Shown here: piece after piece, positions 10,559-17,546 of the stretch | Position numbering within the stretch: position 1 is the stretch's first letter | Layout of the letters: each line of letters begins with the position of its first letter | Assembly (NCBI GenBank): GCA_016200325.1 | Contig: JACQEZ010000019.1 | Location: 1 to 64,000, forward strand | Direction: 5' to 3' | DNA length: 64,000 bases | DNA from: Candidatus Manganitrophaceae bacterium | GTDB taxonomy: Bacteria > Nitrospirota > Nitrospiria > SBBL01 > Manganitrophaceae | Notes under the pieces: generated by a model | The model's database searches: none | Told to the model about the DNA's origin: nothing | Seen by the model: the letters and a program-made list of their open reading frames with translations, nothing else | Made by a program: the position numbers and the translations under genes

Positions 10559-11302
10559 CTACGACAGCTTGCCGCCGAGCGGGATCTCCACCGTCGTTTT
10601 GAACCGGCGTCCCTCTCGGGTCGGCCCTTTCAGAATCAATTCAATCTCCACCGCCAGCGGGAGACTCTTCTTCTGATCCGAATCCCACTGGGTGACCCAG
10701 GTCCGGTCGGCCGAATCGAGGTAGCGAAAACGGATCCCGAGGACCGCCTCTCCGACCTCATTCCGGACGACCCGCTCGTTCGACAGCGCCTCCTCGTGGA
10801 TCAGCAGCCCCTCTTCCAGATGGTAGCTGATCACCGCCCAATCCGACTCCGCCGCATCGCGCATCGTCCGCCCGTGCGAGACCGCCGTGAACCGGATCGA
10901 ATCGTCCGGATAGTCGGTCCCGTCGATCGTCCGGGTCCGATCTTCCCCCTTAAAAAGGGAGGTCGCCGTGATCGTCGCCGGCGGGAGCGGCGCTCCCTGC
11001 CCGATCGGCGCGAAGACCGGCTTCGCCTGATAGATCATGCTGAGGTCTTTCGACAGGTAATAAAAACCAAGCCGCGCCAGCCGGTAGGCGTCGGCCTCCT
11101 TCTCCAGCTGCTCCGAAGCGCGGTAGGTCGCATTAAACGAGCCGTACACCAGGGTGAAGAGAACCGCCAGGATCGCCAGCGAGATCATAATCTCAAGAAG
11201 GGTGAACCCGTGACGATTGCGGATTTCGGAGTGCGGAATTCGGAATAAGCATCGGATCTTCTTTTCTCTTTTAGTCTGCAATCCGCAATTCGCAATCCGC
11301 AA
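10559..11302 (-). CDS. gspJ: T2SS minor pseudopilin GspJ with repeat-encoded leader
   Basis: GspJ forms part of the pseudopilus tip complex. The prepilin motif is HGFTLLEIMISLAILAVLF, with Gly-1, Phe+1 and Glu+5, followed by a ~200-residue globular domain with the usual GspJ signature (YRASEQLEKEADAYRLARLG, FYYLSKDLSMIY). The leader before the cleavage site is about 31 residues and is encoded entirely by the hairpin repeat at 11213-11300. The only in-frame starts are TTG codons inside or at the edge of that repeat. TTG at 11302 is 12 bases after the gspI stop and has a GGGGCGG tract 6-7 bases upstream. A conventional ATG/GTG start is missing, which suggests the repeat displaced the original one. 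Confidence 0.9.
   Translation of the reverse strand: MRIANCGLQTKREKKIRCLFRIPHSEIRNRHGFTLLEIMISLAILAVLFTLVYGSFNATYRASEQLEKEADAYRLARLGFYYLSKDLSMIYQAKPVFAPIGQGAPLPPATITATSLFKGEDRTRTIDGTDYPDDSIRFTAVSHGRTMRDAAESDWAVISYHLEEGLLIHEEALSNERVVRNEVGEAVLGIRFRYLDSADRTWVTQWDSDQKKSLPLAVEIELILKGPTREGRRFKTTVEIPLGGKLS
11213..11300. repeat. Hairpin repeat, copy 1 (gspI-gspJ junction and gspJ leader)
   Basis: The left arm is built of GATTGCGGATTTCGG-like units and the right arm of GCAATCCGCAATTCGCAATC-like units. They flank a pyrimidine-rich centre (TTCTTTTCTCTTTT). The arms are complementary, so the element can fold into a long imperfect hairpin. Copies with the same plan lie at 12166-12230 and 12770-12840. This copy encodes the GspJ leader peptide. 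Confidence 0.75.
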
Positions 11303-11316
11303 TGTATTCCGCCCCG

Positions 11317-11706
11317 TTATCCCTTCGCGTTAAAGAGAAAGGTGGTGAAATGGACCGTCTCGTTGTGTCCCCCTTCTCTCCAGAGGACATCGACGTTCAG
11401 CTCGCGCACCACCTCATAGGGGGTCGCTTTGACCTCCTGCTTCCATTTGTATCCGGGATGCTCCTCGCCGAAATCTCCCTCCCGCTCCCCGACGTCCGGA
11501 AAGCCGGCGAACGAGATCTCGGAGACCAGCTGGCGCGCCAGCAGTGTCGCCTCCGTGATATGGCCGGTATAAGACGACAGCGCAATGTCGCGGTTCCGAA
11601 GCCCCAGGAGCACCGTCAGGGAAATCGCCAAGACCGCCAGGGCGATCATGATCTCGATGAGGGTAAAGCCGCTAGCTTCTCGTGTCGACATCGACATATT
11701 CGTCAT
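11317..11706 (-). CDS. gspI: T2SS minor pseudopilin GspI
   Basis: A 129-residue pseudopilin. The leader MTNMSMSTREASG precedes FTLIEIMIALAVLAISLTVL, with Phe+1 and Glu+5. The globular part is short, as usual for GspI, and contains EATLLARQLVSEISF. It forms the tip trimer with GspJ and GspK. It overlaps the gspH end by 35 bases if the ATG at 11706 is used. In-frame ATGs at 11697 and 11691 are alternatives and shorten both leader and overlap. Coupled translation with gspH is likely. Confidence 0.9.
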   Translation of the reverse strand: MTNMSMSTREASGFTLIEIMIALAVLAISLTVLLGLRNRDIALSSYTGHITEATLLARQLVSEISFAGFPDVGEREGDFGEEHPGYKWKQEVKATPYEVVRELNVDVLWREGGHNETVHFTTFLFNAKG

Positions 11707-12235
11707 ATACCTTAACCCGGCCGGTCAGTGGATTGACCACCAGCGTCCATTTTCGGTCGCCCTGCTTGAGATGAATCCAGGCCTTTTCCAATCCGACCGG
11801 ATAGATCTGCATGAACGCCTCCCCCTGATTGACCTTCCCCTGCTGCGGCGTCACAACGTCGACAAACGAGACCTCCCGCGGCAGGATGCGGCGGGAGGTC
11901 ATCGGATCGGTCGTCTCGACGAACTCCCCATCCCCTTTGAGCGTGCCGACCCAGTAGGCGCCGTTCTCCAGGTTAAAATAGAGGCGATAGGTCTGCTTGG
12001 TCGTAGACGATTCCTGAGCCAGATATTGGATCAGCCCGGCGAAATGCCGCGCCGTCCATTTAAGGTCGCCCGCGCCGAACGAGGAGATCCGGGGAAAAAC
12101 AAAGAGCGCCACCACCGCCATGATCAGAACGACCAACATCAACTCTAGGAGGGTGAAGCCCTTCGATTGCGGAGTGAAGGACAACCTGCTTTTCTTTTCA
12201 TTCCGCAATCCGCATTCCAAAATCCGCATTGCCAC
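11672..12235 (-). CDS. gspH: T2SS minor pseudopilin GspH with repeat-encoded leader
   Basis: A 187-residue protein. The prepilin motif is KGFTLLELMLVVLIMAVVALFVF, then a ~140-residue beta-sandwich typical of GspH (WTARHFAGLIQYLAQES, then ATYRLYF-like strands). The 26-residue leader is encoded within the hairpin repeat at 12166-12230. The start is GTG at 12235, or ATG two codons later at 12229; GGAG, overlapping the gspG stop, serves as ribosome site for either. Only two bases separate it from gspG. The long leader is removed by the prepilin peptidase, so its sequence may be unconstrained. Confidence 0.9.
   Translation of the reverse strand: MAMRILECGLRNEKKSRLSFTPQSKGFTLLELMLVVLIMAVVALFVFPRISSFGAGDLKWTARHFAGLIQYLAQESSTTKQTYRLYFNLENGAYWVGTLKGDGEFVETTDPMTSRRILPREVSFVDVVTPQQGKVNQGEAFMQIYPVGLEKAWIHLKQGDRKWTLVVNPLTGRVKVYDEYVDVDTRS
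12166..12230. repeat. Hairpin repeat, copy 2 (gspH leader)
   Basis: It has the same plan as the element at 11213-11300: a short GATTGCGGAGTG left arm, a pyrimidine centre CTTTTCTTTTC, and a right arm of CCGCAATCCGCATT-type units. It lies wholly within the start of gspH and encodes the residues before the cleavage site. Confidence 0.7.
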
Positions 12236-12237
12236 TT

Positions 12238-12756
12238 CTACTCCATGTTCCAGCTCTCGATGTCGGCGTTTTTCCCCTCCCCGCCCGACTCGCCGTCGGC
12301 GCCGCGCGAGACGAGGTCATAGTCGCCATGCGCGCCCGGACTGGAATAAATAAAGGCGTTTCCCCAGGGATCGTTCGGCACCTTCGGCAGATAGCCCCCT
12401 TCCCGCCAATTCTTCGGGATCTCGCCGACCGTCGGTTTGTGGACCAACGCGTCGAGCCCCTGCTCCGTGCTCGGATAGTTGCCGCTGTCGAGCTTATACA
12501 TCTGCAGCGCCTCTTCGACGTTCTTGAGCTGGACCTTTGCCGCCACCCGCCGCGCCTCATCGGTCCGCCCGACCAGCTTGGGGACGACGAGCACCGCGAG
12601 GATGGCGAGGATCGTGATGACGACCATGATCTCAATCAGCGTGAATCCGGCTTGGGACGGTCGGAGCCATCGCCCCAATCCGGCCGACCAGGCGGGATGC
12701 CTGGGAAAGAGCGGTCTGTTAAAAATAAATCTCTGTAGCGTCATTCGTTGCTTCAT
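12238..12756 (-). CDS. gspG: T2SS major pseudopilin GspG
   Basis: GspG polymerises into the pseudopilus that pushes substrates through the secretin. It has 172 residues. The prepilin motif [20 protein letters not shown] is followed by [17 protein letters not shown] and the conserved C-terminal calcium-loop region ([20 protein letters not shown], then [20 protein letters not shown]), all intact. The leader is 36 residues, several-fold longer than usual. Its DNA includes a CCAGGC/GCCTGG hairpin. The ATG at 12756 has a strong GGGAGG 4-5 bases upstream, so the long leader appears to be real. Confidence 0.96.
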
Positions 12757-12769
12757 ATTCCTCCCTGAT

Positions 12770-12840
12770 TCGATTGCGGATTGGCGATTGCGGATTTCGG
12801 AGTCAGGTCAGAACCCTCTTTTTCCAACCCGCAATCCGCA
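12770..12840. repeat. Hairpin repeat, copy 3 (gspF-gspG gap)
   Basis: GATTGCGGATTGGCGATTGC units on the left and CCCGCAATCCGCATT on the right surround CTCTTTTTCC. It is intergenic, filling the 84-base gap after the gspF stop. The right arm abuts the gspF stop codon. Confidence 0.7.
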
Positions 12841-14058
12841 TTATTTGACGATTTGGCTCACCTCGAAGATCGGCAGGAGAATCGCCAAGACGATAAAGAG
12901 AACGACCGCCCCCATGCCGAGAATCATCAACGGCGCAAGGAGCGAGGTCATCCCGGTCACGACCGTTTCAACCTCATTGTCGTATGCCTCCGAGACCTTC
13001 TGGAGCATCCCTTCGAGCTCGCCGCTCTTCTCGCCGATCGCGATCATGTGGGTGACGAGCGGCGGGAAGAGGCCGCTCCGCTTGAGCGGATCGGCGATGC
13101 TCTGCCCCTCGCGGATGTTTCCCCGCGCCCCTTGGATCGCCTCCTCCAACACCTTGTTGCCGACCACCTGCTGCACGATCTCGAGCGAGATCAGCAGCGG
13201 CACCCCGCTGGCCAACAGCGTGGCGAGGGTCCGGGTGAAGCGCGAGATCGCCACCATCCGGGCGACCCTTCCGACGAGTGGAACGCGGAGGATAAACCGG
13301 TCGTACTGCTCGCGGCACCCCGCGGTCCGGAGGTGCCGCCGGTACATCATTCCGATGATCACCCCCAGCCCGATCAGCAGCCATCCATAGCTCCGCAGGA
13401 AGTTGCTCAGCCCCAAGAGGATCACCGTCGGAAGAGGAAGCGCCTGATTGAGATCGGCAAAGATCGCGGTGACCCGCGGGACGACGAACGAGATCAAGAA
13501 GACCAAGATCAGGGCGCTCACCACCAGCATCAGCGCCGGATAGGTCAGGATTGAAAAGAGCTTGTTGCGAAGGCGGACCTGATTCTCTAAATGATCGGCC
13601 AGCCGAACCAAGATCCGGTCGAGCGTGCCGCTCGCCTCGCCGGCCCGGACCATCTGCCGGTAGAGGGGAGAGAAAACTTTCGGATGGCGCGCCAGCGCAT
13701 CGGCGAACGACACCCCCTCCTTCACCCCTTCCCGGACATCGATCCAGATCTTCTTCGCGACCGGCTTCTCCACCTGCTCGGTCAGCGCGCCGAGCGCCTC
13801 CATCAACGAGATTCCGGCGCTGAGCAGCGTCGAGAGCTGACGGGTCATCACCGCCGTCTCGGGGAGCGCCACCCGCTCCGAGAAGGTAAAGACCGGTTTC
13901 GACAGCCCGGTCGCCGCCTGCTGGGTCTGGGCGATCTCCACCGGGAAGATCCCGCTCTTCCGGAGCTTCGCCCGCGCCATCCGGGGATTGTCGGCATCGA
14001 CGACGCCGGCCTTGTTCTTCCCCTGCAGATCGAGTCCTTTGTATTCGTAAATCGCCAT
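12841..14058 (-). CDS. gspF: T2SS inner-membrane platform protein GspF
   Basis: A 405-residue polytopic protein with two repeated GspF domains (PF00482 type). The N-terminus MAIYEYKGLDLQGKNKAGVV is typical. The first domain has LSTLLSAGISLMEALGALTE and a membrane helix LTYPALMLVVSALILVFLIS. The second has LATLLASGVPLLISLEIVQQ and two C-terminal helices. It is the platform around which the pseudopilus assembles, below GspE. The length is normal. No strong ribosome site is seen before the ATG. The gene is separated from gspE by 191 bases holding an inverted-repeat element. Confidence 0.95.
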   Translation of the reverse strand: MAIYEYKGLDLQGKNKAGVVDADNPRMARAKLRKSGIFPVEIAQTQQAATGLSKPVFTFSERVALPETAVMTRQLSTLLSAGISLMEALGALTEQVEKPVAKKIWIDVREGVKEGVSFADALARHPKVFSPLYRQMVRAGEASGTLDRILVRLADHLENQVRLRNKLFSILTYPALMLVVSALILVFLISFVVPRVTAIFADLNQALPLPTVILLGLSNFLRSYGWLLIGLGVIIGMMYRRHLRTAGCREQYDRFILRVPLVGRVARMVAISRFTRTLATLLASGVPLLISLEIVQQVVGNKVLEEAIQGARGNIREGQSIADPLKRSGLFPPLVTHMIAIGEKSGELEGMLQKVSEAYDNEVETVVTGMTSLLAPLMILGMGAVVLFIVLAILLPIFEVSQIVK

Positions 14059-14249: not shown

Positions 14250-15965
14250 CTAAAAGATTTCCTCCTGCGTCACCCGCAACACCTCTTCCGTCGTCGTCTG
14301 TCCGGAGGCGACCCGCCTCGCGCCGTCTTCCCGCAGCGACAGCATCCCTTTGGCGATGGCACGCGCCTTGATCTTCGAGGAGTCGACTTTCGATAGGACG
14401 AGGTTCCGGACCTCGTCGTCCAAGACCAGAATTTCGTAGATCCCGGCCCGTCCCCGATAGCCGGTGTTGATGCAGTACGGACAGCCCTTTCCTCGATAGA
14501 AGAGAAGGTCGGCGGCGGCCGGTTTTTTAAAGCCGAGCTTCGCCAGCTCTTCCGGCGTCGGCCGGTATGAGATCCGGCATTCCGGGCAGATCTGGCGGAC
14601 GAGCCGCTGGGCGACGATCGCGACGACCGAGGACGAAACGAGAAACGGCTCGATCCCCATGTCGAGCAGCCGGGTGATCGCACCGGCCGAGTCGTTGGTA
14701 TGGAGGGTCGAGAAGACGAGATGCCCCGTCAGCGAGGCGTGAATCGCGATCTCCGCCGTCTCCGAATCGCGGATCTCCCCGATCATGATGACGTCGGGAT
14801 CTTGGCGCAGGATCGACCGGAGGCCGCTGGCGAAGGTTAGTTGGATTTTCGGGTTGATCTGAATCTGGCCGATCCCCTTCAGCTGGTATTCGATCGGGTC
14901 TTCGATCGTGATGATGTTTTTGTCGGGCGAGTTGATCTTGCTCAACCCGGCGTAGAGGGTCGTCGTCTTCCCGCTCCCGGTCGGCCCGGTCACCAAGATA
15001 ATCCCGTGGGGGAGTCGGATCAGCTGGTTCATGATCGACAGCCCCTCGGCCGAAAGCCCGACATCTTCCAGGCTGAGCAGGAGGCTCGTCTTGTCGAGCA
15101 GCCGGAGGACCAGCCGCTCGCCGTGCGCCGTCGGGACCGCCGAGACCCGGATGTCGATCTCGCGCCCGCCGATTTTCAATCCGATCCGGCCGTCTTGCGG
15201 CAGCCGCTTCTCGGCGATGTTCATCCCCGCCATGATCTTGATCCGGGAGGTCAGGGCCGACTGCAGCCGCTTCGGCGGGGCCAAGATATTATAAAGGACC
15301 CCGTCGATCCGGTACCGGATCGCGATCTCTTTTTCGAACGGCTCGAAGTGGATGTCGGAAGCCCGCTGCTGAACCGCCTGAAAGAGGACCGAGTTCACCA
15401 GCCGGATCATCGGCGCTTCATCGCTCGCGTCGAGGAGATCCTCCGGCTCGGCGAGCTCCTCCGCCAATGCGGTGAGGCTCTCCCCCTCGGCCAGATCGGA
15501 GATCGCCTGCTCGGCGCCGGCGGTCGCCCGCTCATAAATCGCGTTGATGCTGCTGATCACCGCCTTGGAGGGAACGGCGACCACCTCGATCGGCTCGCCG
15601 AGGAGGAGCCGAAGGTCGTCGAGCGCCGAGAGAAGCAATGGGTTGGAGGCGGCGACCTGAATCGCCTTGCCGTTTCGTCTGAAGGGGAGAAGCTCATACC
15701 GCTTGGCAAAGGAGATCGGAACCCGCTCCGTCAGCGTCGGGTCAATCTCTTTGGGATTGAGGGAAGGGGAATAGGGGAGCTGCCATTGCTGAGAGAGCGA
15801 CTCCAAGACCGCCTCTTCGGTGACATACTTCAACCGGACGAGGATCTCTCCGATTTTCCCCCCCTGCTCTTTCTGGAGGCGAAGCCCCTCTTCGAGCCGC
15901 GCGGGGGTCAACGCATGTTTTTCGATGAGAATTTGCCCGATCAGCGGGCGTTTCAACAGGGCCAA
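14250..15965 (-). CDS. gspE: T2SS assembly ATPase GspE
   Basis: A 571-residue secretion ATPase that powers pseudopilus assembly. It has an N-terminal MshEN-type domain (~1-150, LIGQILIEKHALTPARLEEG), then the RecA-like core: Walker A GPTGSGKTTTLYAG, Asp box and Walker B (RQDPDVIMIGEIRD), and His box (FSTLHTNDSAGAITRL). A zinc-binding insert CPEC...CPYC is present near the C-terminus, as in most GspE proteins. The start is TTG at 15965 with GAGG 8 bases upstream; I see no better codon. The length is slightly above the ~500 typical of enterobacteria because of the N-terminal domain. Confidence 0.96.
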   Translation of the reverse strand: MALLKRPLIGQILIEKHALTPARLEEGLRLQKEQGGKIGEILVRLKYVTEEAVLESLSQQWQLPYSPSLNPKEIDPTLTERVPISFAKRYELLPFRRNGKAIQVAASNPLLLSALDDLRLLLGEPIEVVAVPSKAVISSINAIYERATAGAEQAISDLAEGESLTALAEELAEPEDLLDASDEAPMIRLVNSVLFQAVQQRASDIHFEPFEKEIAIRYRIDGVLYNILAPPKRLQSALTSRIKIMAGMNIAEKRLPQDGRIGLKIGGREIDIRVSAVPTAHGERLVLRLLDKTSLLLSLEDVGLSAEGLSIMNQLIRLPHGIILVTGPTGSGKTTTLYAGLSKINSPDKNIITIEDPIEYQLKGIGQIQINPKIQLTFASGLRSILRQDPDVIMIGEIRDSETAEIAIHASLTGHLVFSTLHTNDSAGAITRLLDMGIEPFLVSSSVVAIVAQRLVRQICPECRISYRPTPEELAKLGFKKPAAADLLFYRGKGCPYCINTGYRGRAGIYEILVLDDEVRNLVLSKVDSSKIKARAIAKGMLSLREDGARRVASGQTTTEEVLRVTQEEIF

Positions 15966-15992: not shown

Positions 15993-17546
15993 TCATTCGG
16001 CGTTCGTTGGCCGGCTCGCCGGAAGATTGATCATTTCATTTAAAAAGTCCTCGCGGATCTCCCGCCCTTCCATCCGATTCTCGCTCATGAACGCCTTCGT
16101 CCGCTCGATCTTTCGTTCCCGGATCGGGTCGAAGTCTTTCGAGTCCCGAACAAGATGGGGGGTGAGGAAGATCAAGAGGTTTGTCTTCTCCATCCGCCGC
16201 GATTTAAATTTGAAAAACCAGCCGAGCAGCGGGATATCCCCCAGCAGCGGAATCTTCCGCTCCGTGATCTGGATGTTGTCCCGGATCAGACCGCCGATGA
16301 CGACCGTCTGCGCATCGTGAACGATGACGGTGGTGTTCGCCGACCGCTTATTGGTCGTCGGACCGAGGACGACCGTTCCGACCGTCTGGGTCGTGTCGAC
16401 GACGGAGGAGATCTCCTGATAGACATCGAGCTTCACCAGATCGTTCTCCAGCACCTGCGGGGTGAGGCGCAGGATGATCCCGACATCTTTCCGCTCGATC
16501 GTCGTCTGGACGTTCCCGCCGACCGTCTGGCTCTGTGCCCCCGGAAAGGGAACATTCTGGGCGACGACAATCTCCGCCTTTTGGTTGTCGCTCGTCAAGA
16601 GCTGCGGCGTCGAGAGGATATTCACGTCGGTCGACGACTGCAACGCGTTGAGCAGCGCCCGGATATTTACCGTCCCGACCTGCACCCCCGGCACCTGCGC
16701 GAGCGCGATCAGATCGCTCGGATTTTGATTGAACCCGCCGATCGCCGCCAGATCGCCGTTGCCGGTCGTGTAGCCGAAGACGGCGCCGAGGTCGGTTCCG
16801 AGCTGCCGCAGCTTGTCGGCCTCCAGCTCGAGCACCACCGCTTCGACATAGACCTGCCGGCGTTTCATGTCGAGCTTCTGGATCACCTCCTTGATGATCT
16901 CAAAATCTTCGTTGGTCGCCGTGATGATCAGGCTGTTGGTGATCTTGTCCGAGAGGATCTGGACCGTCCCGGTCAGCTCCCCCGTCGGCCGCGAGGTCCG
17001 CCGGGTCGGCGCCGCCGTCCGCGCGACCAGCCCCAGCAGCACCTTCGCGATCTCTTCCGCCTGGGTATTCTCCAGCGTGTAGACATGGACCGCCCGGTCG
17101 GGGGGCACCTCGGTCATCGGAAGGATTTGATAGACCGGCCCGCTCTGGACGACGCCGAATCCCTTCAGCTCCAGCACCGAGAGGAAGAGATCGTAGACCC
17201 GGTCGGCCGCCACCTTCGTCGGAGAGAAGATCGTCACCTTCCCCTTCACCCGCTCGTCGATGACGAAGTTCCTCCCGGTCAGCTCACTGACGAATTTGAC
17301 GAAGACCGGCAGATCGACGTTGTTGAAGTCGAGGGTGATCATCTTTTCTTTCGGGATGGGGTGATCGTCTTTCGAAGCGGGCGAAGCGGGTGAAGCGGGC
17401 GGCGCAGGGGCCGCAGGCCGCTCCTCTTTGATGGGAGGAGGGGTCAGCGCTTTTCCCTGCTCTTGGGCGCGAAGGGGGGCAGGTGCCCCGATTCCAGACG
17501 CAAACACAACCGAGAGCACGAGACAGGCCGCGAGGCGTCTCTTCAT
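15993..17546 (-). CDS. gspD: T2SS outer-membrane secretin GspD, short N-domain form
   Basis: A 517-residue secretin, clearly shorter than the ~650 residues of enterobacterial GspD. It has a signal peptide ending near APLRAQ, then a Pro/Ala-rich linker, then an N0 domain (ITLDFNNVDLPVFVKFVSEL) and what looks like only one N1-type repeat (VHVYTLENTQAEEIAKVLLG) instead of three. The secretin core follows (VYVEAVVLELEADKLRQLG; FPGAQSQTVGG; VVIGGLIRDNIQITERKIPLL). GspD forms the outer-membrane channel. It lies 9 bases after gspC, and the proline-rich linker may span the periplasm in place of missing N domains. Confidence 0.96.
   Translation of the reverse strand: MKRRLAACLVLSVVFASGIGAPAPLRAQEQGKALTPPPIKEERPAAPAPPASPASPASKDDHPIPKEKMITLDFNNVDLPVFVKFVSELTGRNFVIDERVKGKVTIFSPTKVAADRVYDLFLSVLELKGFGVVQSGPVYQILPMTEVPPDRAVHVYTLENTQAEEIAKVLLGLVARTAAPTRRTSRPTGELTGTVQILSDKITNSLIITATNEDFEIIKEVIQKLDMKRRQVYVEAVVLELEADKLRQLGTDLGAVFGYTTGNGDLAAIGGFNQNPSDLIALAQVPGVQVGTVNIRALLNALQSSTDVNILSTPQLLTSDNQKAEIVVAQNVPFPGAQSQTVGGNVQTTIERKDVGIILRLTPQVLENDLVKLDVYQEISSVVDTTQTVGTVVLGPTTNKRSANTTVIVHDAQTVVIGGLIRDNIQITERKIPLLGDIPLLGWFFKFKSRRMEKTNLLIFLTPHLVRDSKDFDPIRERKIERTKAFMSENRMEGREIREDFLNEMINLPASRPTNAE

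Follow-up and report, generated by a model that had tools for sequence, protein, structure and literature searches.

Palindromic elements that sit in frame within protein genes, heptamer repeats and GTAG-type palindromes are all known already in bacteria. The Rickettsia palindromic elements (RPE) and other small MITE-like repeats are fused in frame to genes (PMC2229807), heptameric repeats have been noted in bacteria (PMC4692102), TAACTGA heptamers recur in the Beggiatoaceae (PMC4679880), and REP and GTAG-tagged palindromes have been described as well (PMC3733652). In the open-licence PMC literature searched, we found no description of prepilin leaders as a recurrent landing site for such repeats.

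The repeat described here resembles the RPE in that dispersed palindromic copies stand in frame in conserved protein genes and are apparently neutral, a likeness of behaviour only. Unlike the RPE, its arms are arrays of a 7-nt unit, the insertions are concentrated in a peptide predicted to be cut off, and many unrelated families converge on the same site. With the bacterial heptamer repeats it shares dispersed, mostly intergenic arrays of 7-nt units, often near gene starts. However, the TAACTGA units carry stops in the forward orientation and form direct repeats, whereas the arrays described here lack stops, are often inverted and belong to coding DNA. REP and GTAG palindromes are likewise short and intergenic, and such hairpins occupy leaders themselves: gspH and gspJ in P. 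mendocina FFL34, and gspI in the congener G002. The present repeat is nevertheless longer than these and built of heptamer arrays, and the lone Y1 (RAYT-type) gene of its genome has no adjoining copy. The proteins concerned match GspG-K pseudopilins with class III leaders in their Gly(-1)/Phe(+1) site, hydrophobic stem and operon order, but differ from typical pseudopilins in that their leaders are made of repeat DNA and run to 23-60 residues, where the survey medians are 10-13.

Hairpin copies in a gsp block

The window is a stretch of 64,000 nt (contig JACQEZ010000019.1, positions 1 to 64,000) from a Candidatus Manganitrophaceae genome of 4.2 Mb in 20 contigs (assembly GCA_016200325.1, here G000). 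The gsp block (Table 1) combines the N_methyl/GFTLxE motif with T2SS G/I/J domains in a gsp operon, which identifies gspG-J as type II secretion prepilin genes, although in Pfam terms gspH is assigned from N_methyl and position only.

Table 1. Genes and hairpin repeats of the gsp block, in window coordinates.
Feature	Position	Strand	Remarks
gspD	15993-17546	-	
gspE	14250-15965	-	
gspF	12841-14058	-	Pfam T2SSF 6e-66
Third hairpin copy, gspF-gspG gap	12773-12842	-	heptamer hairpin; non-coding; starts at gspF stop codon
gspG	12238-12756	-	Pfam T2SSG; 36-residue leader at 12649-12756
gspH	11672-12235	-	N_methyl 4e-7; Gly(-1) codon 12158-12160
Hairpin copy, gspH leader	12168-12230	-	heptamer hairpin; encodes MRILECGLRNEKKSRLSFTPQS; ATG at repeat 5' edge
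gspI	11317-11706	-	T2SSI below cut-off; short leader without repeat; overlaps gspH end
gspJ	10559-11302	-	T2SSJ 9e-9, N_methyl 4e-9; Gly(-1) codon 11207-11209
Hairpin copy, gspJ leader	11216-11303	-	heptamer hairpin; arms 11216-11248 and 11271-11303; encodes RIANCGLQTKREKKIRCLFRIPHSEIRN

Each copy consists of two inverted arms of degenerate heptamers (ATTGCGG; in reverse CCGCAAT) around a loop of 20-40 nt, and the coding-strand end of all three is CCGCAATCG. A search of the window against Rfam gave no match. The loops can contain stops, but the consensus arms are directly seen to be stop-free in all six frames, which makes it easy to read through an insertion. The gspJ copy codes up to two codons before Gly(-1) and is read as RIANCGLQTKREKKIRCLFRIPHSEIRN-RH, then, after the cleavage-site bar, GFTLLE. 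The gspH copy is read as MRILECGLRNEKKSRLSFTPQS-K, then GFTLLE. With the motif intact, both leaders are predicted substrates of prepilin peptidase.

Much of this had been claimed in an earlier note on the same DNA. The three copies were found where the note placed them; two encode the GspH and GspJ leaders, as it said, and the third lies between gspF and gspG. It was also right that gspJ has only TTG starts. These stand at codons -31 and -24, none of them beyond the first arm. Because no ATG, GTG or TTG follows that arm, translation has to pass through at least the loop and the second arm. In gspH, an ATG and a GTG stand at the 5' edge of the repeat and one possible TTG lies in the loop (-8 codons), so the second arm alone is certainly coding. 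The suggestion that gspJ has lost an original ATG is plausible, given that the gspJ of another congener, G003, has ATG-AAA before its repeat, but it is unproven. Finally, the note had described a 36-residue GspG leader containing another hairpin. Both are present, and the leader compares with 23 residues in the congeners G002 and G005. However, the insert is an imperfect hairpin that is not repetitive in G000, and the gspG leader was therefore rejected as a further dispersed repeat.

Family A across the genome

The earlier note had proposed a genome-wide search for the repeat, and this uncovered a dispersed family (family A). With up to two mismatches allowed, ATTGCGGATTGCGGATT gave 77 matches at about 45 sites in the 4.2-Mb genome, whereas the pattern read backwards gave 0, so the copies are not due to chance. 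Many genome-wide copies with inverted arms make this a dispersed palindromic repeat of the REP/MITE-like kind. Among 57 relatives searched it is abundant only in the same genus. In G042, a genome of another family in the same class, a related heptamer unit (variants ATTGTGG and ATTGCTG) matches 28 times, although no GspG match was obtained there at the threshold used. Family A copies are mostly intergenic and many start 0-15 nt after a stop codon. Close pairs occur elsewhere in the genome too, so the presence of three copies within 1.6 kb partly reflects general clustering.

As with the RPE, some copies lie in frame in conserved genes, and outside the gsp operon these coding copies are mostly N-terminal. 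The names used here for the non-gsp genes come from reading the sequences, not from a family search. One copy is in the n-region of the Sec signal of a FlgI-like protein (L052:3038-4207, contig 7; MKRWWQINLNPQSEIRNPQWVRAGWGFLIMVCLLF...), where the signal would be very short if translation began at the sole later in-frame start. Another is in the n-region of a lipoprotein signal (L044), the start of which is uncertain. Two more form part of N-terminal extensions, in ArgH (L047) and in a SAM-hydrolase-like protein (L055). A KdtA/WaaA-like gene (L051:8071-8390, contig 5) has the repeat arms about 290 nt apart inside its coding sequence, as if the loop had widened or two copies had joined. Two other candidates were discarded: the MurC N-terminus (L045) is an artefact of start choice, and 'WIRNPQS' in a cytochrome c (L062) was judged a chance match to a normal motif.

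What might move the repeat? A family search for Y1_Tnp found a single Y1-type transposase gene in the genome (L078:4196-4534; contig C16:71195-71533). No heptamer repeat copies lie beside it, and RAYT was rejected as the mobilising partner because no family A copy flanks this lone gene. By eye, no target-site duplication is seen at the three window copies, and we found neither an empty site nor a target duplication that would prove insertion over growth in place. A search of the genome for a 23S-IVP four-helix-bundle gene gave no match, but the controls gave none either.

Leader turnover and recurrence

Leaders of the same genes were compared in the congeners G002-G005. Family A occupies gspH and gspJ of G000, G004 and G005 and gspJ of G003. 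A second family, B, made of CACGCCT heptamers, is found in gspH of G002 and G003 and in gspI of G003 and G005. Family B has copies dispersed through G003; G002 and G005 have it too, and G000 almost lacks it, by counts that are rough because the backward control also matches in some genomes. Still other hairpins stand in the gspG and gspI leaders of G004, and the gspI leader of G002 holds a perfect GTAGGGGCGAGGC hairpin of the GTAG type. Between G005 and G002, the mature G, H, I and J proteins are 99, 95, 94 and 98% identical. Their H, I and J leaders are nevertheless unrelated, and alignment of the DNA resumes at the Gly(-1) codon. The leaders have been overwritten repeatedly in evolution while the mature protein has stayed fixed.

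The same site is occupied by repeats elsewhere. In P. mendocina FFL34 (L166), the gspH leader holds a REP pair that recurs at tens of places in the genome, and the gspJ leader a similar one. The genome G029 has a palindrome with about 40 matches genome-wide in its gspJ leader and a CACGTTT array in its gspH leader. In G028 (L129, contig 21), 5 of the 12 matches of a hairpin family of the CTGCGCC...GGCGCAG type fall in pseudopilin leaders of the gsp operon.

A survey extended this to 221 gsp loci, taken from relatives, genome contigs and 120 further loci of the same phylum. Most belong to that phylum, with the Desulfobacterota, Planctomycetota and Proteobacteria added, and they hold 778 prepilin-type reading frames. 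Arrays were scanned for in the 105 nt upstream of the motif, and leader length was measured to the nearest ATG or GTG. Period-7 arrays occur in 15 of 68 leaders of at least 22 residues in the first panel and 21 of 71 in the second, as against 1/237 and 3/210 leaders of fewer than 16 residues; mature segments of equal length hold none in either panel. A motif search of all loci found 53 leader arrays of period 7, spread over 50 leaders at 36 loci; 15 arrays lay elsewhere and a single one in the approximately 347 kb of mature pseudopilin DNA. Periods 5, 6 and 8-12 gave 0-4 arrays. At tight junctions, arrays stand at 45/690 pseudopilin starts and 4/340 other starts (p=6e-5, a value that is indicative because the loci are phylogenetically linked and the counts not fully independent). 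This is an enrichment of about 6-fold for prepilin-type over other operon junctions, and more if GspK is counted as a prepilin: three of the four other junctions with an array are followed by a GspK-like sequence (xNGIALIITL...), and the fourth is a non-coding gap upstream of gspF. gspH is the most frequent host (10%), with gspG, gspI and gspJ at 5-6%. About 14 of 36 measurable arrays begin within 7 nt of the preceding stop.

The units are diverse (ATTGCGG, CACGCCT, CACGTTT, CACTGTT, TACTCGT, CACTTCT, GAACTGC, CCAGCAA, TCAAATT and others), so the recurrence is convergent. Unrelated dispersed repeats with 7-nt units were also seen in L110-L113, L127, L135, L137, L161, L240, L251, L301, L303 and L329.

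Why repeats may persist in leaders

Our preferred explanation, which we regard as probable, is that tight operon junctions receive repeats, and that these persist wherever the N-terminus encoded downstream can be dispensed with. Before Gly(-1), a class III leader requires hardly more than a short stretch that is polar and positively charged. Intergenic DNA would continually gain dispersed palindromic repeats (in this case hairpins built of heptamer arrays), often right behind a stop codon. In the packed gspG-H-I-J(-K) block such an insertion would come to lie downstream of the start codon of the following pseudopilin gene but ahead of the prepilin-peptidase site, and would survive provided that the frame stays open to the mature sequence. 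Survival would follow from removal of the leader by prepilin peptidase, since its length and sequence would then be barely constrained, and would be eased by stop-free 7-nt units that are open in every frame. Repeats of any family would thus find a largely neutral refuge in the leader time and again. The earlier note had already ventured that the leader is a tolerated landing site, and the unrelated families, the junction enrichment and the replacement of leaders beside mature proteins that are 94-99% identical lend that idea strong support. Leader length is linked to repeats, in that arrays are concentrated in long leaders. In many long leaders, though, no repeat could be detected, so that leaders must also lengthen in other ways. 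The copies in cleaved Sec and lipoprotein n-regions of the same genome fit the view that a disposable N-terminus is what matters. However, ArgH, the SAM-hydrolase-like protein and KdtA carry in-frame copies too, which means that cleavage is not strictly required for tolerance.

Perhaps the repeats are instead kept because the hairpins lower or couple the translation of minor pseudopilins and thereby determine pseudopilus stoichiometry. They do lie directly at or after start codons, and in the first panel the upstream region folds with z below -2.5 in 15/68 long leaders as against 3/236 short ones. However, that effect is weak outside the relatives (p=0.018), and in the phylum panel strong folding (6/71 long, 8/210 short) has no clear link to length, so the reliable signal is period 7 rather than folding energy. 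Within the window the isolated hairpins have modest stability (DNA z -1.8 to -2.4), and in its mRNA context the RNA around both starts is barely more structured than shuffled sequence (z -1.5 and -0.5), which does not support the effect on translation that the earlier note had entertained. Many arrays have no second arm, and the repeat families, and even their presence, differ between near-identical species. We therefore think such a regulatory role unlikely. What if the number of units itself matters? A 7-nt unit gained or lost between the start and the mature protein changes the reading frame, and variant units (AATGCGG) provide ATGs now in one frame, now in another. Pseudopilin output could then vary as at a contingency locus. 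The arrays of G004 and G005 (L111, L113) bear on this: with nearly identical flanks they differ by exactly 7 nt (one unit) in gspH, where the usable ATG has moved to another unit, and by 21 nt (three units) in gspJ. To such a translational switch we give only a slim chance.

It is quite improbable that the repeats are purely untranslated spacers, with initiation inside or behind them, possibly at unusual codons. The TTG in the gspH loop of the window and a TTG right behind the REP of the P. mendocina gspH would allow it, but the window gspJ has no start behind its first arm, and in 41 of the 53 arrays 20 nt or more fall within obligately translated leader, even when any ATG, GTG or TTG is accepted. 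Alternatively, the elements might recognise a target in the leader DNA, namely the codons of the conserved GFTLxE motif. The recurrence would then reflect site preference rather than tolerance. Array ends are clustered 0-10 nt before the Gly(-1) codon (median about 9 nt), as this predicts. However, heptamers, REP, GTAG hairpin and the G029 palindrome, all unrelated, would have to share one target, and in the one genome inspected by eye about 40 other copies lie at sites without the motif. This makes a common target very unlikely.

If disposable leaders are indeed what shelters the repeats, then prepilin leaders would be coding DNA under so little constraint that selfish or structural repeats of unrelated families overwrite them repeatedly. 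This would explain many of the odd N-termini of annotated pseudopilins. The repeat leaders would also amount to a natural assay of what prepilin peptidase and membrane insertion demand of a leader, and the comparison of cleaved with uncleaved N-termini may serve as a built-in control for the selective cost of palindromic repeats.
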